From Proteiniborus ethanoligenes (GTDB lineage: Bacteria > Bacillota > Clostridia > Tissierellales > Proteiniboraceae), in the NCBI RefSeq assembly GCF_900107485.1, contig NZ_FNQE01000016.1, positions 1-64,000 on the forward strand: 64,000 nt of DNA, given 5' to 3'. The position numbers and the translations under genes are program-made. Shown in pieces: positions 3,331 through 21,844 of the stretch. Positions within the stretch are counted from its first letter, which is position 1. Each line of letters starts with the position of its first letter. The notes under the pieces are model-generated. The model was not told the DNA's origin. It worked only from the letters and a program-made list of their open reading frames with translations, and made no database searches.

Positions 3331-4761
3331 ATGCATGATATCACAATCGTTGGAGCAGGTATAATAGGTACATTTATAGCTAGAGAGCTTTCAAGATATG
3401 ATCTAAGAGTGCTATTAATCGATAAAGAAAATGATATAGCTAATGGAACTACAAAAGCAAATAGCGCTATAGTTCATGCAGGCTATGATGCTGCAGAAGG
3501 AACATTAAAAGCTAAATTAAATGTAAGGGGAAACGAACTTTATGAAGATGTATGTAAAGAATTACATGTTCCTTTTAAAAGAATAGGCTCTTTAGTTGTT
3601 GCCTTTAACGAACAGGAGATGAAAACAGTAAAAGAGCTATTCCATAGAGGAATAAAAAATGGTGTCCCTCATTTGGAAATATTGGACAAGGCTAGTGTGT
3701 TAAAGCTTGAAAATAATTTAAGTGAAGAAATAGTAGGAGCCCTATATGCAAAAACAGGTGGAATAGTTGGGCCATGGGAATTAGCCATTGCTTTAGCTGA
3801 AAATGCATTGGAAAACGGAGTAGAATTGATGCTTAATAGTCCAGTAACTGACATTAAAAAAACAGCAGATGGCTACTGTATCACAGCTGGAGATAGAAAG
3901 ATAGAAAGTAAAATGATTATTAATTGTGCTGGGATTCATTCTGATGATATCAATAATATGGTAAATAGTCCTAGCTTCGAGATATTACCTAATCGAGGAG
4001 AGTATAATTTATTTGATAAATCAGTAGGAAATATGGTCAATACAGTAGTTTTTGGATGTCCTTCAGAAGCGGGTAAGGGAGTAGTAATTATGCCTACGGT
4101 CCATGGTAACCTACTTATTGGTCCAACATCAGAATATGTAGATGGAAAAACTAATTTTGCTACCACACTTGAAGGACTAAATTCTATCAATGAACATGCT
4201 CAGCAAACATTGAAGGGAATAGGCTTTCAAAATGTTATTACTTCCTTTATTGGCTTAAGAGCAAAGACTAAAACACAGGATTTTATTATTGAAGAATCAG
4301 AGGAGTCTGTTGGATTCTTTAATGTAGCAGGAATTGATTCTCCGGGACTTACAGCAGCTCCTGCCATTGCAGAATATGTTATAGAGCTAGTGAAAAGAAG
4401 AATAGATAATATAGAGCTAAAAAAAGATTTTAATCCTAATAGAAAACCTAATATTCACTTCATGGAATTGTCTGATTCTGAGAAAGCCAAGCTTATTGAA
4501 AAGGATCCTAGCTTTGGAAGAATTATCTGCCGCTGTGAGCATATTACGGAAGGAGAAATCGTAGATGTTATCAAAAGAAAAGCAGGAGCAACAACAGTGG
4601 ATGGAGTAAAGAGGAGAGCAAGGCCAGGCTCTGGAAGATGCCAAGGTGGATTCTGTGCTCCAAGGGTAATGGAAATTCTTGCAAGAGAACTTGAGATAGA
4701 TATTACAGAGGTTGTAAAGGATAGTCAGGCTTCTCATATATTAACTGGAAAGACCAAGTAG
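3331..4761 (+). CDS. FAD-dependent glycerol-3-phosphate dehydrogenase-like protein with [2Fe-2S] domain
   Basis: A flavoprotein of 476 residues. The N-terminal FAD fold has GAGIIGTFIARELS, and a DAO-type domain covers about residues 1-360. The C-terminal BFD-like [2Fe-2S] domain is marked by ICRCEHITEGEI and by GRCQGGFCAPR (Cys-x-Cys and Cys-x4-Cys). This layout is that of anaerobic GlpA-type dehydrogenases, which oxidise glycerol 3-phosphate to dihydroxyacetone phosphate. It lies behind the GlpP leader and is followed within 30-odd bases by a second flavoprotein and a DUF1667 protein, which together should form the electron-accepting complex. An L-2-hydroxyglutarate-type oxidase is a less likely alternative. 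Confidence 0.85.
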   Translation: MHDITIVGAGIIGTFIARELSRYDLRVLLIDKENDIANGTTKANSAIVHAGYDAAEGTLKAKLNVRGNELYEDVCKELHVPFKRIGSLVVAFNEQEMKTVKELFHRGIKNGVPHLEILDKASVLKLENNLSEEIVGALYAKTGGIVGPWELAIALAENALENGVELMLNSPVTDIKKTADGYCITAGDRKIESKMIINCAGIHSDDINNMVNSPSFEILPNRGEYNLFDKSVGNMVNTVVFGCPSEAGKGVVIMPTVHGNLLIGPTSEYVDGKTNFATTLEGLNSINEHAQQTLKGIGFQNVITSFIGLRAKTKTQDFIIEESEESVGFFNVAGIDSPGLTAAPAIAEYVIELVKRRIDNIELKKDFNPNRKPNIHFMELSDSEKAKLIEKDPSFGRIICRCEHITEGEIVDVIKRKAGATTVDGVKRRARPGSGRCQGGFCAPRVMEILARELEIDITEVVKDSQASHILTGKTK

Positions 4762-4790
4762 TATAAAAATCTAGAAGAGTAGGAGGGAGC

Positions 4791-6059
4791 ATGTTGTTAT
4801 ACTATGATATTGTAGTAATCGGTGGAGGACCTGCAGGGTTAGCGGCTGCTATAGAAGCACGAAAAAATGGAGTAAAAAATATATTAGTAATAGAGAGAGA
4901 TAGAGAATTAGGTGGTATATTACAGCAATGCATTCATAATGGGTTTGGACTCCAGGTTTTCAAAGAGGAGCTTACGGGTCCAGAGTATGCAGAAAGGTTT
5001 ATTAAAGAGCTCATTACTATGGGTATAGAATATAAATTAGATACAATGGCTCTAGAAGTTTCAGACAATAAAGTTATTACAGCTATGAACTCAACAGATG
5101 GCATACTTAATATTCAAGCTAAGGCTATAATACTAGCCATGGGTTGTAGAGAAAGAACTAGAGGGGCTATCAGAATACCGGGAACTAGACCAGCAGGAGT
5201 TTTGACAGCTGGAACAGCTCAGAGATTTGTTAATATGGAAGGTTATATGATTGGGAAAAGAATTGTTATTCTTGGTTCAGGAGATATAGGACTAATTATG
5301 GCAAGACGTTTAACTCTTGAAGGAGCTAATGTATTAGCTGTTGCTGAATTAATGCCATATTCAGGAGGATTAACAAGAAATATAGTTCAATGCTTAGAGG
5401 ATTTTAATATCCCTCTTTACTTAAGTCATACAGTAGTAGATATAGAAGGACATGATAGAGTAGAGTCTGTGACCATTGCTCAGGTTGACCATAGGCTTAA
5501 ACCAATTAAGGGGACAGAAAAGAAGTTTGAATGCGATACTTTACTATTATCTGTAGGACTGATTCCTGAGAATGAGCTTTCAAAATCAGCAGGAATAGAG
5601 CTTCACAATATTACTGGAGGTCCAATTGTAAACGAATCCATGGAAACATCTGTTGAAGGAATTTTTGCCTGTGGCAATGTGGTTCATGTTCATGATTTAG
5701 TGGATTGGGTCACAGAAGAAAGTCAAAAAGCTGGAAGAAGTGCCGCTAAATACATTAAAGGGCAGATAGAAAGCAATTGTAAAACCATAAAAGTTAAGGG
5801 GATAAATGGAGTACGATATGTGGTTCCTCATCAAATAAGATTAGATAATATAGATCAAGTAGTTGAGCTAATGATGCGTGTAGATAATATATACAAAGAT
5901 ATAAAACTTGTTATAAGAAGCAATGAAAAAGTAATTGAAGAGGTAAAAAGAAAGCATGTTGCACCTGGAGAAATGGAAACTATAAAATTAGATTTAAATA
6001 AAATTAATCTACAGGCTAGTGATGAAATTTGTATAGAAGTTGTTAAGGAGGAGGCATAA
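4791..6059 (+). CDS. NAD(P)/FAD-dependent oxidoreductase, partner subunit
   Basis: A pyridine-nucleotide-disulfide-type flavoprotein of 422 residues. It has two dinucleotide-binding motifs, GGGPAGLAAAIEARKNG near the N-terminus and LGSGDIGLIMARRLTLEG near residue 160, and a distal FAD-contact segment GIFACGNVVHVHDLVD. ARKNG is followed by CxxxGFG-like residues rather than a CxxxxC redox pair, so it is probably an electron-transfer subunit that moves electrons from the upstream dehydrogenase to NAD or another carrier. The next gene starts two bases after its stop, indicating translational coupling. Confidence 0.85.
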   Translation: MLLYYDIVVIGGGPAGLAAAIEARKNGVKNILVIERDRELGGILQQCIHNGFGLQVFKEELTGPEYAERFIKELITMGIEYKLDTMALEVSDNKVITAMNSTDGILNIQAKAIILAMGCRERTRGAIRIPGTRPAGVLTAGTAQRFVNMEGYMIGKRIVILGSGDIGLIMARRLTLEGANVLAVAELMPYSGGLTRNIVQCLEDFNIPLYLSHTVVDIEGHDRVESVTIAQVDHRLKPIKGTEKKFECDTLLLSVGLIPENELSKSAGIELHNITGGPIVNESMETSVEGIFACGNVVHVHDLVDWVTEESQKAGRSAAKYIKGQIESNCKTIKVKGINGVRYVVPHQIRLDNIDQVVELMMRVDNIYKDIKLVIRSNEKVIEEVKRKHVAPGEMETIKLDLNKINLQASDEICIEVVKEEA

Positions 6060-8760: not shown

Positions 8761-11187
8761 ATGAACAATAAAGCTTTTAAAACTCTTACTGCGTTAATTC
8801 TAATTTTATCCATGCTTATAATGACTGGATGCCAAGCAGTTAAAAATATTCTGCCAGAAAAGGAGGATATAAAAAAAATCCTTGAAGCTACAAGGGGAGA
8901 AAAAGAGCAAGACCTTGAAAACATTTTTGAAATAATCAATATAGATTCTAAAAACATAGGAAAGGTAAGCACTCAGATGCTAACCTTAGCAAAGCTTTAT
9001 TATGATCTATCCTATCCTAAAATAGAAAATAATACTGGAGATCTAAAGTTAAAGCTACCATTAAATCCAGATTTTAAGGGAAAAACATTAGACAAAGCAA
9101 AAAGTCATGAGTTAAGCGAGCTTTCAGCATCAGCAGCAATCACCATGTCTATGCCTTATTTCTCCATATCGAGTAGTGCATTGGCTTTTGCATATGCACC
9201 TGATTCTGCATTTGCTGTACATAACTTAGCTGCTTCCATTCGTCTTGCAATAGAGAATAATGACAAAAGTGTATTTGAAATCGAGGGGCTTTACCCCTTA
9301 GAAGATAGTGCAGCCTTGTACCTTTATTCTATTGCCATAGAGCCAGAGAGGATAGAATCATACATAAATCTAGGAAATATATTTATGGAAATGGCTGGAG
9401 AAGATGTGGATGTAGTTAGTACGCCTTATTTTTCTGGAGATATGACTAAGGCTCAAATGCTAAATTACGCTAAAGGTTTATTTGAAAAGGCTTATTCTAT
9501 TGATAATGAAAGTAGCTTAGCCTGTACAGGTATGGCAAATTATTATTATGCCAAGGGAGATAGAGATAAATGGCTAGAATGGATAGTAAAAGCTTCAAAA
9601 GGAGTTGCTTTTTATAAAAAGGTTGATCAAAAAGTAGAAGAAATAGAGACTGTAACCAAGAAAGTAGGAGAACAGGGATATATCTCTGGAGACGTTGCAA
9701 AGGAAGCTATTGATCAATTAAGTAAAATAGAGGTATTTACTACTGCGGACTATTTTGAAGAACTAAGCCCAGATATTGCTACTGCTATTCGCAAGAAAAT
9801 GAATAGCTTACCTAAGGACGATGTAATATTTAAAATCAATACTCAGCCCTATGTTGCTGGTGTAACCTCTTATGAGCTTTACTCTAAGCAGTATAGCATT
9901 GCTGCAGAGGATTATTATTTTAGTATAATAAACAGCCTGGAAAAATGGAGAGAGGAAGTGTCTGAAAAAAAACAGGCCATAGATGAAAAACTATATTCAC
10001 AGACTGAAGAAATTGATAGTAGCATAATGGAGGAACTAGCTGAGCGGTTAGGAAAAGGAGATTTATCGGCTCTAGAAGAAATAAAAAAATATTTAAATTC
10101 AGTTGCTCCTAATATAGATTTATTTCCAGGCTATGATTATTCCCAAATTGAATCAGTAAAAAACTCCATAGCTGTGAACAATCAAATGCTACTTCAACTA
10201 AGAACTACGTATTATATGCTATATCTGGATCATGAATTAAATAAGGCTCAAGAGCTTGATTGGAATAAAAAGCAACTATTTTATGAAAAAGCTAATAGTT
10301 TATTCGAACAGGAAGATGCAGAGATAGAGCCTTTATCTGCAAAGCTTAATAATGCTGATGAATATGAAGCAGCAATTATAGCGAAAGAGATCAGCAAAAT
10401 AAGGAACGAATATTCTCGTAAACGTAATGAACTTAGGCAAACTGGCTTTGCAGATTTAACAGGAGAAATATTCCCTAAATATCCTAAGGCAATGAATACT
10501 TTGATGAAAATGTGGGAGGAATGTGCTCCTCTTATACGCTTTATTGAGGATGAGCAGACAAGGAATTATAAGTATTATGAATTAAGTGAATACACTGTTC
10601 ACATTGCCACGAGCTATATGTATTTAGCAGCTAACTTAAATGGCTTTGGAAGCTGGGAAGATGCTACAACCATGGAATGGGAAGAATTGAATGCAGAGCA
10701 ATCAAAGATTGAAAAGCAGGCAGAAGAAGCTCAAAAAGAGGCTATTGCCAAAGCAGAAGCGGAAAAGGCATATCAAAAAATACCTGTTCCAGTTAGGGCT
10801 TTGCAAGCATTACTAGGAGATACAACATTTTCAAAAAGCTTCGGTCCCATTAGCATATCAGTGTCTCCAACAAATATATCTATGGCAGGTGCACTCATAG
10901 CAGCAGGAGAGATTGGCTACAATTGGGTAGAGGATACTGGTACAGTAGGTCTCGGCTTAGGAGCACAAATGAAAGGTAAAGGCGTTGGGGGCAGTGCTTC
11001 AACCTTATTGACATTGACCTTTGATGCAAATACTGGAAATGTAAAGGAAATAGACTGGAAGGCCTCAGCAGACGCATCTTTTGATATTGGAGTCTTTAGC
11101 CTTGGAGGAGGCTATTCTACATCAGTTATGCATGGAGGAGATTTTTCGTCTTCCCTTGGTTGGGGGGATTATGGGATTTCAAGATAA
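8761..11187 (+). CDS. Large predicted lipoprotein of unknown function
   Basis: An 808-residue protein with a clear lipoprotein signal (hydrophobic stretch, then LIMTGC with the acylated Cys near residue 23). The body is largely helical, with TPR-like segments such as IEPERIESYINLGNIFMEMAG and YAKGLFEKAYSIDNESS around residues 190-270, then long charged helices up to about residue 660 with a coiled-coil stretch (QSKIEKQAEEAQKEAIAKAEAEKAY in part). The last 130 residues change character and become Gly/Ser/Ala-rich beta (GLGLGAQMKGKG, FSLGGGYSTS). I do not recognise the family. It is monocistronic, flanked by a 220-bp gap and a terminator. Confidence 0.7.
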   Translation: MNNKAFKTLTALILILSMLIMTGCQAVKNILPEKEDIKKILEATRGEKEQDLENIFEIINIDSKNIGKVSTQMLTLAKLYYDLSYPKIENNTGDLKLKLPLNPDFKGKTLDKAKSHELSELSASAAITMSMPYFSISSSALAFAYAPDSAFAVHNLAASIRLAIENNDKSVFEIEGLYPLEDSAALYLYSIAIEPERIESYINLGNIFMEMAGEDVDVVSTPYFSGDMTKAQMLNYAKGLFEKAYSIDNESSLACTGMANYYYAKGDRDKWLEWIVKASKGVAFYKKVDQKVEEIETVTKKVGEQGYISGDVAKEAIDQLSKIEVFTTADYFEELSPDIATAIRKKMNSLPKDDVIFKINTQPYVAGVTSYELYSKQYSIAAEDYYFSIINSLEKWREEVSEKKQAIDEKLYSQTEEIDSSIMEELAERLGKGDLSALEEIKKYLNSVAPNIDLFPGYDYSQIESVKNSIAVNNQMLLQLRTTYYMLYLDHELNKAQELDWNKKQLFYEKANSLFEQEDAEIEPLSAKLNNADEYEAAIIAKEISKIRNEYSRKRNELRQTGFADLTGEIFPKYPKAMNTLMKMWEECAPLIRFIEDEQTRNYKYYELSEYTVHIATSYMYLAANLNGFGSWEDATTMEWEELNAEQSKIEKQAEEAQKEAIAKAEAEKAYQKIPVPVRALQALLGDTTFSKSFGPISISVSPTNISMAGALIAAGEIGYNWVEDTGTVGLGLGAQMKGKGVGGSASTLLTLTFDANTGNVKEIDWKASADASFDIGVFSLGGGYSTSVMHGGDFSSSLGWGDYGISR

Positions 11188-11488: not shown

Positions 11489-13330
11489 ATGGATTATGAA
11501 AAAATCGGCATTATAGAATATCGTCAGTTGTCACAAAAGGTAGCTGAGGCTATAAAGGCTGTTCTTGGCATTGACGTAACAATAATGAATGAATGGATGG
11601 AGCGTATAGCAGGTACAGGAATCTATAAGTCATTAATTAATGATAATATTGAGGAAAATTCAGCATTTGGTAGATGCTTTTCTACTGGTAAAGCACAAGT
11701 GATTACAAATAGATGTCAAGAAGATTCATTATTTATTGGCTGTTCAAGACTTTCAACATGTGCAGAACAAGCAACTATATGTGTTCCTATTAAGCAGGAG
11801 GATAAAACCATAGGAGTCTTAGGTATTGTTGCCTTCAATGGAGAACAGAAAAAACAGGTAATTAATAATGAAGATGTATACTTAAATTATCTGGAAAAGA
11901 TGGCTTTTCTTTTGGAAGGGAAATATTCAGAATATCAGTCAAACCTAGAGAAGAAAGTTTTATCCGATAGAATGAAAGGCATACTAGATACAATTAATTC
12001 AGGTGTAGTAATATACGATGGGGATGGAAATGTTTTATACAAAAATAACTCTCTAGTTAGAATATTAAATGAAATAGGCATAGAAAACATGGATAATTTT
12101 GTAAATGAAATAAGGAAAAATGATCTTCTCCAAAGCTTGCTAGATAATGATGAGTGCACTCATCCATGCGAGATTGCTATTGATATTCTTGGCGTAAAAT
12201 ACAATCTTCTTGTGACTATAACTTATTTGAAAACAGACAGTTTTTCTAATGAAGTCATGCTGACTATTCAAAATATTAACTATTTTAAAAAGCAGGTTAT
12301 GCAGTCTATAGAAAAAAATCATGTTAGGCTTCAATTTGACAATATTCTAGGCGTGTCAGAGAACTTCCTTGAGGTTAAATCTCTTGCAGAAAAAGCAGCA
12401 TTATCTGATTCAAATGTGTTGCTTCTAGGTGAAAGTGGAACTGGAAAAGAACTTTTCGCTAGAGCTATACACAATCATAGTGAGAGAAAAGACAATGCTT
12501 TTGTTCCTATTAACTGCGGTGCCATACCAGATGCATTGTTTGAAAGTGAGCTTTTCGGTTATGAAAAAGGTGCATTCACAGGAGCCTATTCTAATAAAAT
12601 AGGAAAGTTTGAAATTGCTGATAAGGGTACAGTTTTTTTAGATGAAATTAGTGAATTACCATATCGCCTACAGGTAAAGCTTTTAAGAATTTTGCAAGAT
12701 AAGGAAGTATCAAGGATTGGAAGCAACATTATACACAAAATTGATATTAAAATAATAGCTGCTTCAAATGTGGATTTAAAACAAAGAGTAAAAGAAGGGC
12801 TTTTTAGAGAGGATTTATATTACAGACTTAATGTAATACCACTCTATATTCCACCGCTTAGAAAGCGTGAGGATGATATTATATTTATTGCTAACCATTT
12901 CATTAAATATTATTCTGAAATGTTAAAGAAGGATATTAGAGGAATAAGTCAAGATGCCATATCTATGCTTTTGAAATATCCATGGCCAGGAAATGTAAGA
13001 GAGCTTCAAAATGTAATAGAGTATGCAGTTAACTTCGAGCAAAGGGACATAATTCATAGTGAATTAATTGAAAGAAGACTTTTATCCAATAACGATAAGT
13101 GCAGCTTGACGAAGCATTTAAGTGGAAAATCCCTTGGGAACTGCTTAAAGGAATTAGAAAGAGAAATTATATCCAGCTCAATTAGTAGATATTCATTTCC
13201 AAATAGTAAAGATTATATAACTCAGCAGGTGTGTAGAGAATTAGATATTAGCAGGGCAACTCTTTATAGAAAAATCAAGGAGCTAGACATAAATCTCAAC
13301 GATGAGAATTTTCTCATTAATGAGATTTGA
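11489..13330 (+). CDS. Sigma-54-dependent transcriptional activator with Cys-rich GAF-like sensor
   Basis: A 613-residue enhancer-binding protein. Residues 1-150 form a GAF-like sensor with cysteines at 63, 76, 85, 91 and 98, a cluster that could bind metal, an Fe-S cluster or sense thiol redox state. A PAS-like domain covers about 155-265. The AAA+ domain follows, with Walker A GESGTGKE at 314-321, the sigma-54 contact GAFTGA at 361-366, and DEISELP. A Fis-type helix-turn-helix ends the protein (SRATLYRKIKEL). Three palindromic sites lie at its 3' end and downstream, followed by a -24/-12 promoter in front of the selenoprotein-transporter operon, so that operon is its evident target. It is not preceded by a receiver domain, so it senses a ligand directly. 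Confidence 0.9.
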   Translation: MDYEKIGIIEYRQLSQKVAEAIKAVLGIDVTIMNEWMERIAGTGIYKSLINDNIEENSAFGRCFSTGKAQVITNRCQEDSLFIGCSRLSTCAEQATICVPIKQEDKTIGVLGIVAFNGEQKKQVINNEDVYLNYLEKMAFLLEGKYSEYQSNLEKKVLSDRMKGILDTINSGVVIYDGDGNVLYKNNSLVRILNEIGIENMDNFVNEIRKNDLLQSLLDNDECTHPCEIAIDILGVKYNLLVTITYLKTDSFSNEVMLTIQNINYFKKQVMQSIEKNHVRLQFDNILGVSENFLEVKSLAEKAALSDSNVLLLGESGTGKELFARAIHNHSERKDNAFVPINCGAIPDALFESELFGYEKGAFTGAYSNKIGKFEIADKGTVFLDEISELPYRLQVKLLRILQDKEVSRIGSNIIHKIDIKIIAASNVDLKQRVKEGLFREDLYYRLNVIPLYIPPLRKREDDIIFIANHFIKYYSEMLKKDIRGISQDAISMLLKYPWPGNVRELQNVIEYAVNFEQRDIIHSELIERRLLSNNDKCSLTKHLSGKSLGNCLKELEREIISSSISRYSFPNSKDYITQQVCRELDISRATLYRKIKELDINLNDENFLINEI

Positions 13331-13439: not shown

Positions 13440-13455
13440 TGGCATGATTATTGCA
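13440..13455 (+). promoter_or_regulatory. Sigma-54 (-24/-12) promoter
   Basis: TGGCATGATTATTGCA matches the TGGCAC-N5-TTGCA consensus with correct GG/GC spacing and one mismatch in the -24 element. It lies 65 bases before the selenoprotein start, in the gap after a sigma-54 activator. Confidence 0.85.
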
Positions 13456-13519: not shown

Positions 13520-13792
13520 ATGAAGAAAATCATTGTTTTTGGAAGTAAGCATTGACCAGGCTGTGCACCTATGAAAGAGTTTCTTTCAGATGAAAATATT
13601 AAATTTTTATATCTAGATATTTCTGAGAATATGTTAAACTTAAAAACCTTTTTAAAATATAGGGACAGTGCTCCTGAGTTTGAAGAAATTAAAAAGGCTG
13701 GTAGAGTTGGATTGCCTTGTATAGTAATCAATAATGGTGAAGAAATAGTTTTTGATAAGGCTTCGTTAGATATTGAAGAGTTGAAGAAATAG
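13520..13792 (+). CDS. Selenocysteine-containing glutaredoxin-like protein (TGA at codon 12 read as Sec)
   Basis: A 90-residue thioredoxin-fold protein if the in-frame TGA at 13553-13555 is read as selenocysteine. The start at 13520 has a GGGAGG ribosome binding site. The first 18 residues run MKKIIVFGSKHUPGCAPM, placing Sec12 and Cys15 where glutaredoxin-related proteins (COG4545 type) carry a CxxC pair. The cis-Pro loop is GLPCIVINNGEE. A hairpin suited to a bacterial SECIS element follows the TGA. An annotation that starts at the ATG at 13571 would lose the active site. It is the first gene after the sigma-54 promoter and is followed 16 bases later by the transporter permease gene, so it should act with that transporter, perhaps reducing its cargo after uptake. 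That role is inference. Confidence 0.88.
13572..13588 (+). promoter_or_regulatory. Candidate bacterial SECIS hairpin
   Basis: TGAAAG pairs perfectly with CTTTCA around the loop AGTTT. The loop begins 22 bases after the TGA codon and has G at its second position, which fits the known rules for bacterial SECIS elements (loop about 16-37 bases downstream, G in the first two loop positions). Confidence 0.7.
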
Positions 13793-13808: not shown

Positions 13809-15218
13809 TTGATAAAAAGTCTCGGAGTGACATTTGAGAAAATGTATAAACGCCCCTTTTATAAAGTGTTGCTGCTTATATTTGGATTTCTTTCTCTTCC
13901 TTTTGTTTTAGTTAAATATATGAAAAATAAAAGGAACAATGATTATGCTATTTTAAGACAAAGTATCTATCAGAGGCTTGAAAAAGAAGGGGTTAGAGAA
14001 GAAACATACAATAATGCTCAAGAACAGCTTAAAAACAAATTGTCATTTTTTAAGAAAGAATTAAGCCCAGAAGAATTTGAACGTCAAGTTAAAGAAATTA
14101 CAGATAAAAAGTTTAATGAAATTATTCATAATGAATTAAATATAATATCTAGACAAAAACATGTTAAAAATGTTAACTTTTGCAATACATTTATAGAAAT
14201 GTTTAATAATAAGCTATTTCTTACCCTTTCAATAATACTGTCTTTTCCAATGTATATATTGATTTTAATATTCAGCAATCCTTATGCAAAATACATTGTT
14301 GAAAGACTTTTCATGATGGTCTTTGTCATATTTGGTGTTACTTGGTTAGTATTTACAATACTATATTTGTCACCTATGGACCCTGCCACTAACATATTAG
14401 GACAAACAGCAACACCAGAGCAAGTTGCACAGTTCAATAGTATTTATGGTCTTGACAAACCATATCATATACAGCTAATAGGTACTTTTAAAAGCCTGTT
14501 TTCATTTGATTTAGGTAAATCCTATGTAGGAAATGAAGATGTTCTCTCAGCAATAATGAGAAAATTTCCTGTTACATTACAATTGACATTTGCTTCTCTT
14601 ATAATAGCAGTTTTGATTGCAATACCTGCAGGAATAATATCTGCAATAAAACAATACTCATCATTTGATTATATATTTATGCTTGGTGCTCTATTAGGGC
14701 TATCAATACCAAATTTCTGGTTAGGACTAATTATGATATTAAACTTTTCGATTAAGCTAAAATGGCTGCCTGCTACTTTTGTGGTAGGTGATTGGAAAAC
14801 ACTTATTATGCCAAGTATAGTTTTAGGAACAGCTTTGGCTGCCAGTGTAGCCCGAATGACAAGATCCTCAATGCTAGAGGTTAAGAACATGGATTATATT
14901 TTTACTGCTCGTGCAAAAGGATTAAGTGAAAGAAAGGTTATAACAAAGCATATTCTTGGCAATGCAATGATACCTATTGTTACGGTTATAGGATTACAAT
15001 TTGGTGGTATGCTTGGAGGCTCTGCAGTTACAGAAAAAGTATTCAATATTAATGGTATCGGAAGCTTTATAGTGGACAAGCAGTTTGTTCCAGACATACC
15101 TATTGTTCTTGCAGGAGTAGTTTATGTCGCAGTAATCATAAGCTTAGCTAATTTAATAGTTGATATCATGTATGCATTTTTGGATCCAAGAATCAAATCC
15201 AAAATGAAATCCTATTAA
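13809..15218 (+). CDS. Peptide-type ABC transporter permease (OppB/DppB family) with N-terminal extension
   Basis: A 469-residue permease; ordinary DppB proteins are about 310-340. Residues 1-155 are extra: one membrane segment (about 17-37), a charged helical stretch of about 90 residues, then a second membrane segment. The DppB part starts near residue 160 (ERLFMMVFVIFGVTWLVF) and is complete: LSPMDPA, the EAA-type loop with RAKGLSERKVITKHILGNAMIP, and the terminal LDPRIK. It starts at TTG behind AAGGAGG. It pairs with the next gene. The extension suggests an added cytoplasmic or regulatory module. Confidence 0.9.
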   Translation: MIKSLGVTFEKMYKRPFYKVLLLIFGFLSLPFVLVKYMKNKRNNDYAILRQSIYQRLEKEGVREETYNNAQEQLKNKLSFFKKELSPEEFERQVKEITDKKFNEIIHNELNIISRQKHVKNVNFCNTFIEMFNNKLFLTLSIILSFPMYILILIFSNPYAKYIVERLFMMVFVIFGVTWLVFTILYLSPMDPATNILGQTATPEQVAQFNSIYGLDKPYHIQLIGTFKSLFSFDLGKSYVGNEDVLSAIMRKFPVTLQLTFASLIIAVLIAIPAGIISAIKQYSSFDYIFMLGALLGLSIPNFWLGLIMILNFSIKLKWLPATFVVGDWKTLIMPSIVLGTALAASVARMTRSSMLEVKNMDYIFTARAKGLSERKVITKHILGNAMIPIVTVIGLQFGGMLGGSAVTEKVFNINGIGSFIVDKQFVPDIPIVLAGVVYVAVIISLANLIVDIMYAFLDPRIKSKMKSY

Positions 15219-15233
15219 GGAGAGTTAGAAACT

Positions 15234-16742
15234 ATGGAGAATAAACAATATAAGAAAAGAATCCAACAAAGAAAATTGAATAGTTTTCAAGAATACAAGA
15301 CATCTACATTTGCTTGGGGAGCATCATTTCTTTTGTTTTTAATAATTCTCATTTCAAGTGTAGACATAGCAAGTGGCCAGATAAAGAAATTATCTTTAGC
15401 TGTGTCTTTAGTATTTCTTGTATCAGGAATAATTCAATATCTTGTTACTAATAAAATTAGGAAAGAGATATTAAAATATGATGATATTAAATCTTCAACA
15501 AGATTAATTGGCTATTTTTTAATTCCTTTTGCTTTAACAGGAAATTTTTTTATAGCTATAGCTGGATTTACATTGATTAAAAAAGAAAAAACTATTGAGT
15601 ATACTCTCTGTATATATTCAATATTAACTACTTTTACAATTATGCTTGTATCATCATTAAATCTATTTAAAGAATATGTATCTAATACTTTTATGATTGG
15701 AATGGGCATATTGCTTGGTATTACTTTGTTCTATGTGTTTACTATGTTTATGGTTTCAAAGTACGTCAAAGGCAAGCATGTGGATAAAAAGCTAGTACCC
15801 ATTGCTATTCCTCTTATTCTCAGTATTGGAATAGGTAATTTATTTGCATTTCTCTTAGGCTTGATAATTATTAGCAAGGCAAGACATAAAGACGAGGAAA
15901 TATCTATTGAATGGATTGATGTCCTAAGAAGGCTCTTTAGAAACTATATGTCTGTATTAGGTATGTTTGTAGTAACACTTCTTATATCATTATCTATTTG
16001 TAGCTATTTAACCTTTGATTATTCAATAGCTATTGACAATAACTATTCTGCTATACTTCTGTCACCTTCATTAGAGTATCCTTTCGGTACAGATAATTAT
16101 GGTAGATGTGTATTTACAAGAATTATTTTTGGAGCTAGAATTTCTCTAGTAGTAGGTACAATAGCGACTTTAGTTCCTATTGTAATAGGAGGTATTTTAG
16201 GTGCTTTATCAGGCTACTATGGAAAAAGAACAGACAATATTATTATGAGACTTTTGGACGTACTTTACGCTGTTCCAGGGATACTTCTAGCTATTGCAAT
16301 AGTTGCAGCTTTTGGCGCCAGTACAATGAACTTAATTTTAGCCTTAAGTATTGGTTCCATACCTATGTATGCAAGAACTGTCAGAGCTACTGTTATGAGC
16401 ATTGCAAACCAGGAGTTTGTTGAGGCTGCAAAGGCATGTGGTGCAAAAGATTTCACTATTGTATTTAAACATATTATACCTAACTCTTTGGCACCTATTA
16501 TTGTAAGGGCAACGCTAGGAATAGGAGGAGCCGTGCTTTCCACCAGTTCTTTAAGCTATTTAGGATTAGGTGTAGAGCCACATATTCCAGAGTGGGGAAA
16601 TATTCTTAAAATTGGAAGTGCTTATCTTGAAACCAGCCCATATTTAGCTATTTTCCCAGGACTGGCAATTATATTAATAGTTTTAGCCTTCAACTATTTT
16701 GGTGATGGTCTTAGAGATGCTTTAGATCCTAAGTTGAAGTAA
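15234..16742 (+). CDS. Peptide-type ABC transporter permease (OppC/DppC family) with long multi-span N-terminus
   Basis: A 502-residue permease; typical DppC proteins are about 280-310. Residues 1-220 hold about six extra hydrophobic segments, then LRRLFRNYMSVLGMFVV begins the DppC core. The core shows PFGTDNYGRCVFTRIIFGAR, the EAA loop AKACGAKDFTIVFKHIIPNS and the terminal GDGLRDALDPKLK. Two copies of a similar pattern (FALTGNFFIAIAGFTLI and IGIGNLFAFLLGLIII) suggest an internal duplication in the extension. Both permeases of this operon are enlarged, so the extensions may contact each other. Confidence 0.9.
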   Translation: MENKQYKKRIQQRKLNSFQEYKTSTFAWGASFLLFLIILISSVDIASGQIKKLSLAVSLVFLVSGIIQYLVTNKIRKEILKYDDIKSSTRLIGYFLIPFALTGNFFIAIAGFTLIKKEKTIEYTLCIYSILTTFTIMLVSSLNLFKEYVSNTFMIGMGILLGITLFYVFTMFMVSKYVKGKHVDKKLVPIAIPLILSIGIGNLFAFLLGLIIISKARHKDEEISIEWIDVLRRLFRNYMSVLGMFVVTLLISLSICSYLTFDYSIAIDNNYSAILLSPSLEYPFGTDNYGRCVFTRIIFGARISLVVGTIATLVPIVIGGILGALSGYYGKRTDNIIMRLLDVLYAVPGILLAIAIVAAFGASTMNLILALSIGSIPMYARTVRATVMSIANQEFVEAAKACGAKDFTIVFKHIIPNSLAPIIVRATLGIGGAVLSTSSLSYLGLGVEPHIPEWGNILKIGSAYLETSPYLAIFPGLAIILIVLAFNYFGDGLRDALDPKLK

Positions 16743-16758: not shown

Positions 16759-17730
16759 TTGGATAATAATATATTAGAAATAAAGAATCTTCATGTTCAT
16801 TATATTACAGAGGATGAAACCGTTAGGGCGGTAAATGGACTGAACTTATCCTTACAAAAAGGAGAGAGCTTGGGATTAGTAGGTGAAACAGGTGCTGGTA
16901 AAACAACTACTGCATTGTCAATAATGCAATTGGTACCCTACCCACCTGGAGTTATTACAGATGGAGAGATAATATTCCAAGGCAAAAACCTTATTTATAA
17001 TACAGATAAAGAGAATCAACAAATGAGAGGTAATGGTATATCTATGATATTTCAAGATCCTATGACTTCTCTCAATCCAATAATGACTATAGGAGAACAG
17101 TTAGTAGAGGTTATCTTAACTCATAAAAAAGTCACCAAGGAAGAGGCAAAACAGCAAGCAATTGAATTATTAAAGGTTGTAGGAGTTAAAGAAGACAGAT
17201 TTAATGATTATCCACATCAGTTTTCAGGTGGCATGAAGCAAAGAGTAGTTATTACTATGGCGCTCTTATGTAACCCTCAGCTTTTAATTGCAGATGAGCC
17301 TACTACCGCTTTAGATGTGACTATACAAGCTCAGGTTTTGGATATCATAAGAGAGCTTCAACAAAAATACAACATGTCTATGATACTCATAACCCATGAT
17401 CTAGGTGTTGTTGCAGAAACATGTGACAAGGTTGCCATTATGTATGCTGGTGAAATAGTAGAAACAGGAACGATAGAGGAAGTATATACTAATGCTAAAC
17501 ACCCCTATACTAGAGGATTATTTGAGTCAATACCAAAACTAGATGAGGATAATGAAAAACTGATACCTATTCCAGGTAGCACTCCTAATGCTGCAGCATT
17601 GCCGGATGGATGCTTTTTCCATCCTAGATGTAAGTATAAACAGGAAATATGCGAGAAGGTTTCACCACCTGTAATGGGAGAAGGACACTGTTATAAATGT
17701 CATTTTTCATTATTTGAAAAGGAGCAATAA
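16759..17730 (+). CDS. Peptide ABC transporter ATP-binding protein (OppD/DppD family)
   Basis: A 323-residue ATPase with Walker [11 protein letters not shown]-loop [10 protein letters not shown], signature FSGGMKQR, Walker [13 protein letters not shown] and the switch His in LITHDLG. The C-terminal oligopeptide/dipeptide extension is present ([14 protein letters not shown] and later Cys), which in relatives can carry an Fe-S cluster. It starts at TTG behind AAGGAGG. Confidence 0.94.
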
Positions 17731-17732
17731 AT

Positions 17733-18716
17733 ATGAGGCCTTTATTGGAAGTAAAAAACTTAAAAAAATATTTTGATGTGCCTAATGGACATTTGCATGC
17801 AGTTGATAATGTTAGCCTACAGATTAAAGAAGGAGAGACCTTGGGTATTGTTGGAGAATCAGGATGTGGGAAAAGCACCTTAGGAAGAGTTATTCTTCGC
17901 CTACATGAGCCTACTTCTGGAAGCATTATCTATGACGGAATGGATATTACAACCTTTAACAAAGAAGAAATGCGTCAAATGAGAAAAAACATGCAAATAA
18001 TTTTCCAGGATCCATATGCATCCTTAAATCCGAGGTATACTATCTCACAGATAATTGAAGAACCTTTGAGATTGCATAATATCTATAAAAACGATAAAGA
18101 GAGAAAGGAACGAGTTGAAAGTCTAATGGAGTATGTAGGCTTGTCAAAGCGTGCTTACAATCTATACCCACATGAATTTGATGGTGGAAGACGTCAGCGT
18201 GTTGTTATAGCCAGAGCATTAGCCATAGATCCAAAATTTATAGTTTGTGATGAACCAGTAAGCGCACTAGACGTTTCTGTACAAGCTCAAATATTGAATT
18301 TAATGATGGAGCTTCAAAATGAATTTGGCTTAACCTATATTTTTATTTCTCATGATTTGTCAGTTGTTAAGCATATATCAAACGATATTGGAGTTATGTA
18401 TTTAGGTCAGCTAATTGAAAAAGCACCTAAGAAGGATATATTTAAGCAGCCCCTACATCCTTATACAATAGCCTTGTTATCAGCTATACCTTCTACTAAT
18501 ATCAAGGTCAAGAAAAAGAAGATTATCCTAAAGGGAGAAATAGTATCACCAATTAATCCCAAGCCTGGCTGTAGATTTTCAGTTAGATGTCCCTTTGCTA
18601 CTGAGCAATGTGTTCAAGAAGACCCACAATTCATTGAGGTTGAAGAGGAGCACTTTGTTGCTTGCTTTAGATATGAAGAGATTAAAGCTGGGGCATTACA
18701 CTTTGAAACCAAGTAG
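17733..18716 (+). CDS. Peptide ABC transporter ATP-binding protein (OppF/DppF family)
   Basis: A 327-residue ATPase beginning three bases after oppD ends. It has Walker [10 protein letters not shown], Walker [13 protein letters not shown] and the switch His in FISHDLS. The signature reads FDGGRRQR rather than LSGGQRQR: the key serine is replaced by aspartate, while OppD keeps a normal signature. This suggests one degenerate ATP site in the heterodimer. The C-terminal Cys-containing extension ([15 protein letters not shown]) is present. Confidence 0.93.
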
Positions 18717-18827: not shown

Positions 18828-20654
18828 ATGAAAAAAACAATAGCTCTATTGCTAGTTACAATAATGATGCTAGGAGTACTAGCAGGTTGTAATGTAAAGA
18901 CAAAAGACCAGGTAACTGGTGGGGATACAGAAGGACCTGCTGTCAATGCTCAGCCAGTTGATATCACCCTATTGGCTATGAGTGCTTATGAAAAAGATGT
19001 TAATATTGTAAGAGATCAGCTTTCAAAAGCAGGCTTTAATGTTAAGCTAAACCTACAGCCAGACTATGGTAGCTTTGTTGGTCAAAAAGATGCAGGTAAT
19101 TATGATCTAGCAATATCAGGCTGGACTACAGTTACAGGAAACCCTGATTATGCTGTAAGATCATTGTTTACAACAGGTGGAGATTATAATGATTATGGTC
19201 TATCAAATTCAGACCTTGATAGACTTGTAGAAGAGGCAGCTACTCAAACACCTGATCAATATGTTAATACCTACAAGGAATTTGAAAAAATACTTGTAGA
19301 AGACAATGCATATATTGTTCCACTATATTCTAGCTATAAGAGCCAAGCTATTAACAAAGAAATATTGAAGCTTGACAGTGTTAGATTAAGTAAATCTCGT
19401 TCATTACCTTGGGAAGAACTTGATTTTGTAGATGAGTCAAAAAGAACATCAGAGCCTTTCCTTTTTAGCCAAACTATGCCATCACTTACTTCCTTAGATC
19501 CTATAAAAGGTAACGATGGTTCTATAAATATAATCAATACAAATCAATATATTAGATTAGTAAACCTTACAGATGATGATGAGGTAACTTCAAAGGGCTC
19601 TTTATCTTATAACAATGTTATAGGAGAAGGTAATCAAGAGTACTACTTTGTATTAAGAGATGATGTAAGATTTGCTAAAGTAGAAAATAAAAAGGCTGTT
19701 GATTCTGGAGAGCTTGTAGCAGCAGAAGATGTTGTTTTCTCAATGAACAGAGCAAAGGATAAAAACTCAGTTCCTGATCACAGAACTTACAGCTTACATT
19801 CAAGTATGGACAAAATAGAAATTGTTACTGACATTGCAGAATTAGAATCTAAAAATGAATCAGGTAAAAATACAAATGTTAAAGAAGCATTAGAAAAAGG
19901 GTTACCAAGCCCAATTAATCAACTTGTTGCTGATAAAAAAGATGTAAATAATGCAGCTGGAAGCTATCAAGTAGTAAAAATAACTACTAACAAGCCATTT
20001 CCACAAGTATTAAATTATCTAGCACATCAATCAGCAGGTATTGTTTCTAAATCACAAGTAGAAGCTATAAACACTTATGATGTGGCTACTTATGACAGAA
20101 ATAAGGATATAGCTTATGGAGATCAAACTACTATAACAGAAGGCTCAACATATAACAATACTTTAGCTACTAGTGGACCGTATATTGCTATTTACAAGAA
20201 TGACTATGAAGTAGTATTTGAAAAGAACCCTGGATACATGAAAGGTACAGAGCATGAGCCTAGAATATCAAAGGTAGTTGTTAAATTCATTAAAGATGCT
20301 GATAGTTCACTTTCTGCTTTCAGAAGTGGAGAGGTTCATTTATTATACAGTGTTCCAGAAGATAAATATTCCTTAGTAGAAAGTGATTCTAAATTATTCC
20401 TTCAAAAAAGACCTAGTAATGCTGTAAATTATGCATTCTTCAACTTAAAAGGGAATAGCAAATTTTCTGATGTTAATTTAAGAAAAGCAGTATTAAGCAG
20501 CGTCAATCAAGATGAGTTTTTAGCTGTATATAACAACTTAAAGCTTAAAGCGTATTCTACAGTTTCTCCACTAGTAGACACTGGAAATGTTCATACTGCT
20601 GATCCTGCTAAGGCAAAAGAATATTTAAATCTATACTGGGAAAGTCAAAAATAG
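18828..20654 (+). CDS. Circularly permuted family-5 substrate-binding lipoprotein
   Basis: A 608-residue lipoprotein (LAGC, acyl-Cys at residue 21). Family-5 binding proteins normally begin with the LxPxx segment, reach GxGPY and the lobe II core, and end with the 'iGi-v-ld...dyDl...gW...dpd' region. Here that usual C-terminal region comes first (about residues 44-190: DITLLAMSAYEK, QLSKAGFNVKLN, YDLAISGWTTVTGNPDY, DLDRLVEEA). The usual N-terminal region follows from about residue 223 (LDPIKG, YYFVLRDDVRF, AAEDVVFSMNR, SGPYIAI, NYAFFNLKG, VNLRKAVLSSVNQDEF). The protein stops at AKAKEYLNLYWESQK, exactly where a normal protein would run on into the segment now at the front. It is the only binding protein of this operon and should capture its cargo outside the membrane. 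Confidence 0.88.
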   Translation: MKKTIALLLVTIMMLGVLAGCNVKTKDQVTGGDTEGPAVNAQPVDITLLAMSAYEKDVNIVRDQLSKAGFNVKLNLQPDYGSFVGQKDAGNYDLAISGWTTVTGNPDYAVRSLFTTGGDYNDYGLSNSDLDRLVEEAATQTPDQYVNTYKEFEKILVEDNAYIVPLYSSYKSQAINKEILKLDSVRLSKSRSLPWEELDFVDESKRTSEPFLFSQTMPSLTSLDPIKGNDGSINIINTNQYIRLVNLTDDDEVTSKGSLSYNNVIGEGNQEYYFVLRDDVRFAKVENKKAVDSGELVAAEDVVFSMNRAKDKNSVPDHRTYSLHSSMDKIEIVTDIAELESKNESGKNTNVKEALEKGLPSPINQLVADKKDVNNAAGSYQVVKITTNKPFPQVLNYLAHQSAGIVSKSQVEAINTYDVATYDRNKDIAYGDQTTITEGSTYNNTLATSGPYIAIYKNDYEVVFEKNPGYMKGTEHEPRISKVVVKFIKDADSSLSAFRSGEVHLLYSVPEDKYSLVESDSKLFLQKRPSNAVNYAFFNLKGNSKFSDVNLRKAVLSSVNQDEFLAVYNNLKLKAYSTVSPLVDTGNVHTADPAKAKEYLNLYWESQK

Positions 20655-20800: not shown

Positions 20801-21844
20801 ATGTGTCCTGAATCCTTAAATAACCGAATTAAAAATTTATCTGGTATGATTGGAAATACTCCTCTATTGGAGATAAAACTAAAATATAAAGGCGAAGAGC
20901 GTACTGTTTATGCAAAGGCAGAACATTATAATTTAACAGGTAGTATAAAAGATAGAATGGCACTGCATATTATGAAAAAATCATATGAGCTTGAGAGACT
21001 AAAGCCAGGAGATACTATAGTTGAAGCTACCAGTGGAAATACAGGTATAGCCTTTTCAGCAATAGGTAGAGCATTAGGACATAAAGTAACTATTTTTATG
21101 CCTGATTGGATGAGTCAGGAAAGAATAAACCTAATAAAAAGCTATGGAGCTGATATTCAACTAGTCAGTAAAGAAGAAGGCGGTTTCTTAGGTAGTATAA
21201 GTAAAGCAGAAGGATTAGCTGAAACTAGTGATAATTTTTTCCTACCATGTCAATTTTCCAATACGGATAATTGTGAAGCTCATTATACAACTACTGGACC
21301 AGAAATCTGGCATCAACTACAGAAGCTAAATTTAGAGCCAGATGCAATAGTAGCTGGTGTGGGTACAGGTGGAACCATTATGGGAGCAGGAAGATATTTA
21401 AAAGAAAAGAACCCAAACATTAAGCTTTATCCTTTAGAGCCTTCTAACTCTCCTACCCTATCTACTGGATACCAAGTAGGTAAGCATAGAATTCAAGGGA
21501 TATCTGACGAGTTTATTCCCTCCATTGTGAAGCTTGAAAAGCTAGACGATATAATTCATGTTGATGATGGAGATGCTATTATAATGGCGCAGAAATTAGC
21601 TGCTACATTAGGGTTAGGTGTAGGAATTTCCTCGGGTGCTAATTTATTAGGATCCATTATTGCACAAGAAAAGCTAGGCAAGGATAGTATTATTGTGACT
21701 ATTTTTGCTGATGACAATAAAAAATATTTAAGTACTGACTTAATGAAAGAAGAGCCTATTGGAAAAGATTTTCTTTCCCCAGATATAGAGTTAATAAGCG
21801 TAAAAGCCCATAGTCGAGTATGCACTACTTGTAATGAAGAATAA
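20801..21844 (+). CDS. Cysteine synthase family PLP enzyme
   Basis: A 347-residue fold-type II PLP enzyme. IGNTPLLEI lies near residue 17, the Schiff-base lysine is K50 in TGSIKDR, the phosphate/substrate loop is EATSGNTGI, and the PLP-phosphate loop is [11 protein letters not shown]. Relatives make cysteine from O-acetylserine and sulfide or act as beta-lyases. The C-terminus carries a short tail with CTTC, absent from ordinary CysK, which could be a redox or metal site. It lies 147 bases downstream of the binding-protein gene and may belong to the same sigma-54 unit, supporting a sulfur-compound theme. Cystathionine beta-synthase-like activity is an alternative. Confidence 0.88.

Follow-up and report, generated by a model that had tools for sequence, protein, structure and literature searches.

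A substrate-binding lipoprotein of Proteiniborus ethanoligenes carries the two blocks of the family-5 (DppA/OppA) fold in exchanged order, with the C-terminal block ahead of the N-terminal block. Its gene lies in the window analysed here, a stretch of 64,000 nucleotides of genomic DNA, and is an intact open reading frame encoding 608 aa (18828..20654, + strand). The protein was confirmed as a natural permuted family-5 binding protein. Permutation of a binding protein is already known from Treponema pallidum Tp0684 (MglB-2), an ABC binding protein with a natural circular permutation that is placed in 'Cluster Bc' and has relatives in Gram-positives (PMC4990184). Tp0684 has a sugar-binding Cluster B fold, and its strands from near the usual N-terminus are found near the C-terminus; it belongs to another family than the window protein. 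Among the matches listed from the open-licence literature, no permuted family-5 protein was described. Many ABC binding proteins fall into family 5, and a widespread natural permutant offers a fixed test of the termini and hinge crossings that the Venus-flytrap mechanism requires.

The chain runs from signal peptide to C-block, linker and N-block. The signal peptide ends in the lipobox VLAGC (18828..18890, +), whose Cys21 is invariant across 20 aligned members; the earlier note had put both signal and lipobox at the new N-terminus, where they indeed lie. The C-terminal block (residues 44-204; 18957..19439, +) corresponds by sequence and structure matches to about DppA 342-507 and includes the joining linker at about residues 181-204. 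By the same kinds of match, the N-terminal block (residues 205-608; 19440..20651, +) corresponds to about DppA 1-343. The block borders given earlier were nearly right, except that the N-block begins at about residue 205-215 and not at 223. The chain, said to stop at AKAKEYL, continues for 8 residues beyond this motif. The curated PF00496 profile scores the protein at 145.8 bits against a cut-off of 32.4, which places it in family 5, and among the best 50 matches listed its sequence and fold matches are to the same family. The window protein has the fold pieces of DppA, OppA and GsiB (SBP family 5, PF00496), but the canonical block order is absent and the protein is a variant rather than a plain member of the family.

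The exchanged order, proposed in the earlier note, is demonstrated by rotation of the sequence, after which matches that had been split run through without a break. Against a reference profile built from 19 normal-order relatives, the native protein was matched in two blocks: residues 53-180 matched profile positions 377-507 (61.5 bits), and residues 205-601 matched positions 41-358 (120.8 bits). When the chain was instead cut at residue 205-215 and rejoined, one block covered profile positions 54/56-507 at 183-184 bits. Among eight other cut points, six split the match again, and cuts at 150 and 223 gave one main block with lower scores (167.4 and 177.2 bits). A shuffled sequence gave no block with this profile. 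Rotation at other cut points and the shuffled sequence together rule out a chance order of motifs. Summed scores are nearly equal (187.0 bits native; 169.9-190.4 rotated, with 190.1 for the cut at 450) because HMMER adds separate blocks, and the evidence therefore lies in one block versus two, not in the total score. PF00496 behaved in the same way (two stretches in the native protein; one stretch, 14-367 of 368, at 155.3 bits after rotation), as did 1dpp among the PDB sequences (46.2 bits in two stretches native, 53.9 bits in one rotated). The single continuous alignment that had been predicted for the rotated protein was obtained with all three references, and native order does not give the better full-length alignment, since it splits where the rotated sequence gives one block. 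Profile searches, as seen here, break permuted proteins into pieces.

Structure prediction agrees with this arrangement. An AlphaFold2 model of the whole chain, built from 20 sequences, reached a mean pLDDT of 80.7 and a pTM of 0.79, and sequential structural alignment placed residues 209-608 on 1dpp (DppA) 1-343 (Z 20.2, 324 residues, 3.6 Å). When the C-block (residues 42-206) was modelled alone, the model was weak (pLDDT 67.4, pTM 0.50). Its best match, also weak, was to 5u4o 361-521, the C-terminal part of a family-5 protein (Z 7.3), and it was weakly aligned with 1dpp 342-507 (Z 6.3, 147 residues, 6.5 Å). Inside the whole-chain model, ten-residue means for this block were 83-95 over residues 41-210, except for 68 at 101-110. 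Sequential aligners given the whole model matched mainly the N-block (Foldseek TM about 0.3-0.5). Taken together, the structural alignments and the sequence match show that the window protein has every part of the DppA fold in a single copy. That the C-block is better modelled in the whole chain than alone would suit a single interlocked fold better than a pair of partial lobes.

The permuted order extends well beyond the window genome. Both congeners have the same block order at 86% identity, and one of them is a one-contig genome; an assembly error is ruled out by this shared order and by its presence in several other one-contig genomes. Judged by which profile match comes first in the chain, 55 distinct window-type sequences in the fetched loci are permuted. 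Their sources include Staphylococcus-like genomes as well as Tissierella, Paenibacillus, Lysinibacillus and Lachnospiraceae, and the mean column identity in their conserved core is 71% (20 rows). Identity of the window protein to normal-order relatives is about 22-35%. The earlier note had asked whether homologs with the same order define a clade, and they form one group with 100% SH-aLRT. Patterns found 21 loci in genome contigs, 19 of them complete and 2 running into a contig end; besides Tissierella, Paenibacillus, Lysinibacillus and Lachnospiraceae, these loci also represent Oscillospiraceae and others. The wide genome searches, which scored the best 3-4 candidates per genome, gave a near-whole-protein match in 34 of 398 genomes of one class (Bacilli by inference), several of which are one-contig genomes. 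At E 1e-60, the window genome itself was the one match among 291 genomes of its own class, and a phylum sample had the permuted protein in 4 of 398 genomes, the window genome included. Left out of the counts were L070 and L125 (odd coverage), L042 and L044 (genes cut by locus ends) and L116. The last of these, from genome G1154, holds the final third of a permuted gene only (10185-10832, +; 68% identity), which is either a remnant or an assembly gap.

The gene of the window protein is part of an operon that is kept in both congeners (L131 and L132). The order is a sigma-54 activator, a sigma-54-type promoter, a glutaredoxin-like gene, OppB, OppC, two ATPases, the permuted protein and a cysteine-synthase-like gene. 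Profile matches identify the regulator as a GAF and sigma-54 activator protein (AAA+, Fis-type HTH; 11489..13330, +). The promoter, TGGCATGATTATTGCA (13440..13455, +), lies between the activator gene and the operon and was the sole match to the search pattern on both strands of the 64 kb; similar sites, found with a slightly looser pattern, precede the operon in L131, L132 and Tissierella sp. P1 (L029). By sequence comparison, the next gene encodes a glutaredoxin-like protein (13520..13792, +) with an in-frame TGA (13553-13555), read as UPGC, and this TGA is conserved in L029, L041, L043, L131 and L132. The window genome encodes SelB (362.7 bits), which as a control scored above the cut-off in 2 of 14 genomes. 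A SECIS-like fold behind the TGA gave no signal above shuffles (z 0.5), and an Rfam search around the TGA gave no match at the gathering threshold. The glutaredoxin-like frame is likely a selenoprotein gene.

Genes for a cognate transporter of OppBCDF type adjoin the permuted gene. Profile matches identify an OppB-type permease with an N-terminal extension of about 160 aa (13809..15218, +), an OppC-type permease with one of about 225 aa (15234..16742, +), an OppD/DppD-type ATPase (16759..17730, +) and an OppF/DppF-type ATPase (17733..18716, +). Hydropathy predicts about 2 and about 6 extra membrane segments in the two permease extensions. A search for a normal-order forerunner by means of the OppC extension, over 329 genomes, gave matches only in G000 and G389, and G389 also carries the permuted protein. 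Downstream of the permuted gene, in the window and in both congeners, is the cysteine-synthase-like gene, in the window a PLP enzyme of the cysteine synthase family by profile matches below NCBIfam cut-offs (20801..21844, +). In Tissierella sp. P1 the gene that follows the binding protein belongs to the serine-dehydratase-alpha (SDH_alpha) family instead.

The window protein has been linked, through close staphylococcal relatives, to GisD of Staphylococcus aureus (SAUSA300_0203), which has the same permuted order and is homologous over nearly the full length. In three Staphylococcus-like loci (L113-L115), a fused divergent ATPase gene is followed by two permeases, the permuted protein and a gene of 669-670 aa, which is the published layout of S. 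aureus GisABCD-Ggt. The permuted protein of L113 is 36% identical to the window protein over nearly its full length, and those of L113-L115 are 75-82% identical to a partial S. aureus protein. The partial gisD gene encoding the latter, in L084, matches window protein residues 1-227 and so spans the C-to-N junction. The L084 record (NZ_CP077929.1), an S. aureus 'plasmid' entry, folds back as an inverted copy within gisD and looks like an assembly artefact. The gene beside the permuted protein in L113 is a gamma-glutamyltranspeptidase (PF01019, TIGR00066), and those in L114 and L115, judged from like first residues, are probably the same. The window permeases are 42-46% identical to the permeases of L113-L115, the counterparts of GisB and GisC. 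However, gisA is one fused divergent ATPase gene, a form also present in Paenibacillus and Lysinibacillus loci, whereas the window operon has two ATPase genes; and ggt lies in the S. aureus operon, whereas none lies beside the permuted gene in the window operon. The window system is therefore called Gis-like and is not filed as Gis. No PF01019 transpeptidase was found in the window genome at E 1e-10, while both congeners have one, and the family is missing from 2 of 11 permutant-bearing genomes tested; in the window genome, released cargo would need another hydrolase.

The S. aureus gis locus is reported to support GSH and GSSG as sulfur sources, with GisD as the predicted binding lipoprotein (PMC10355420), and a second study used gisD mutants (PMC12510641). 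The string 'permut' has 0 occurrences in the main texts of both. GisD is a described nutrient-uptake protein whose block order departs from what a homology model would assume. The earlier note was silent on this kinship, on the operon context and on the recurrence of permutation within the family.

Permuted order has also been found in other family-5 groups. In the group labelled THB, a junction query gave one unbroken match in 21 of 358 genomes (57-100% identity), one of which, G551, has a TAG within the match. The same search found at least 17 genomes with two separate matches in normal order (38-64% identity). The 18 regions fetched comprised 7 permuted THB loci, 9 loci in normal order, one distant permuted locus (L164) and one without a family ORF (L165). 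Eleven of 12 short loci (L137-L148) were permuted, six of them duplicating genes of the fetched regions, and no family ORF was recovered from L139, the one with a TAG. THB comprises 17 distinct sequences in all. Profile positions 354-370 mark the start of the C-block and 362-363 the end of the N-block, which is the same loop as in the window protein. On the tree, THB rows form one clade (99) that is nested among normal-order rows by starred nodes. In nine fetched genomes, a given set of normal-order genes is matched by the C-block and the N-block of THB alike, with 44-64% identity for each block, and these sisters offer a direct before/after comparison. With plasmids as the target of the junction query, all of the best 25 of 2440 records were matched in two pieces.

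A second permuted type is encoded by L013 (1018-2682, -), in a genome of the same taxonomic order that consists of one contig. Its cut falls at profile 295 | 298, about 60 profile positions before the window cut, at what we take to be the start of lobe 2. The native protein scored 151.3 and 201.2 bits in two blocks, and rotation gave 354.6 bits in one. Among the matches listed for 150 genomes of the order, the full-length match of this type was in its own genome only. The L164 protein (3779-5590, +) is a distant permuted family-5 protein matched by profile 384-505 and then 38-362; its placement in the tree is unsure, and it is probably a fourth permuted group. The L164 genome has a second junction-spanning match (G343:C29:10441-11145), from which no ORF was recovered.

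Could the order of the blocks have another source than permutation of a single gene? Blocks from different genes might merely resemble a permutation, as has been raised for Tp0684. The low identity of the window protein to normal relatives would be compatible with such a chimera, but the two blocks complete each other, with hardly anything duplicated or missing (profile 377-507 and 41-358; DppA 1-343 and 342-507), and the paired blocks of THB share their normal-order counterparts, as permutation of one gene would give. This origin is considered improbable. Even less credible, to the point of being nearly negligible, is the view of the protein as a relic, degenerate or only partly folded. The truncated gene of L116 is the one observation in its favour and bears on that gene and not on the window gene; long intact frames in all 55 distinct sequences, the strongly conserved core, and intact permeases and ATPases alongside in the congeners and in most loci where ORF picking showed genes all speak against decay.

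A more serious alternative concerns the cargo. A sound permuted protein might bind another peptide, a cystine-like compound or a D- or gamma-linked peptide, with the thiol genes serving general sulfur use. The window genome without a transpeptidase would fit, as would the varied neighbours elsewhere, including an amidohydrolase in L042, the SDH_alpha gene in L029 and genes that look peptidase-like from their first residues only. Ligand identity may differ given the 36% identity to the staphylococcal protein. However, homology is near full length, the permeases are of the same kind as in the gis locus, and the glutaredoxin-like gene lies within the operon; a cargo unrelated to glutathione is possible, though we would not favour it. 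Because of the homology to GisD and the glutaredoxin-like and cysteine-synthase-like genes in the operon, the most likely cargo would be glutathione, GSSG or a related gamma-glutamyl/thiol peptide.

On the computed order, conservation, operon and homology, we consider it quite probable that the window protein is a natural circular permutant with one closed fold that docks on its own transporter and binds a ligand of this kind. The N- and C-termini of normal family-5 members lie close together, and a foldable permutant could for this reason arise if a gene were duplicated in tandem and then lost its outer parts, or by fusion and a new start. A search for duplication relics near permuted genes, by tblastn with four queries at 20 loci, found none. 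In the proposed course, the short linker would connect the old C- and N-termini, and the new chain ends would come from a break in the loop that leads from a helix (DPAKAKEYL) to the following strand (VDITLLAM), at about DppA 343/344. This loop presumably lies inside lobe 2, so the export signal and lipid anchor would sit on lobe 2, whereas on the same assumed lobe borders they sit on lobe 1 in DppA, OppA, GsiB and other normal members. Once folded, the protein would still be a single Venus-flytrap able to close on its ligand, and it would dock on the permeases and ATPases encoded beside it.

Permutation in family 5 appears to have had more than one origin. In the first row set, one origin for the window clade and THB was compatible with the data (p-AU 0.34), and one origin for THB and L013 was rejected (p-AU 6.6e-5). 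The fuller set brings in L164, further THB rows and nine genes of normal order that are close to THB, takes nine of the later permuted entries, and drops 8 normal rows, 9 of 17 GIS rows and 2 of the 4 first THB rows; with it, a single origin for the window clade and THB was rejected (AU p=0.008). Both trees are 'quick' trees with long branches, that of the window clade being 1.8-1.9, and on them at least three permutation events are the best reading. A broader proposal is put forward tentatively: family-5 proteins of Bacillota would undergo recurrent permutation, with three or more separate events, of which two or three fell at the same loop and one took place within an otherwise similar operon. 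Placing the N-terminus, anchored or free, on lobe 2 may alter tethering or permease docking and may have been selected for this effect. Anchoring as a general driver was rejected, since 7 of the 17 THB proteins have no lipobox-like motif in their first 100 residues (loose motif; some ORF starts uncertain), and it cannot be the sole reason.

The further groups also have transport genes nearby. Permuted and normal THB-type members alike precede OppB/OppC/OppD-type genes in the loci where ORF picking showed them. The neighbours of the L013 gene are ABC permease and ATPase genes, an amidohydrolase gene and an aminotransferase gene. In THB-type loci, all four neighbours picked for comparison are Peptidase C26 genes (gamma-glutamyl hydrolase type), one beside a permuted member (L151) and three beside normal-order members (L158, L159 and L166).
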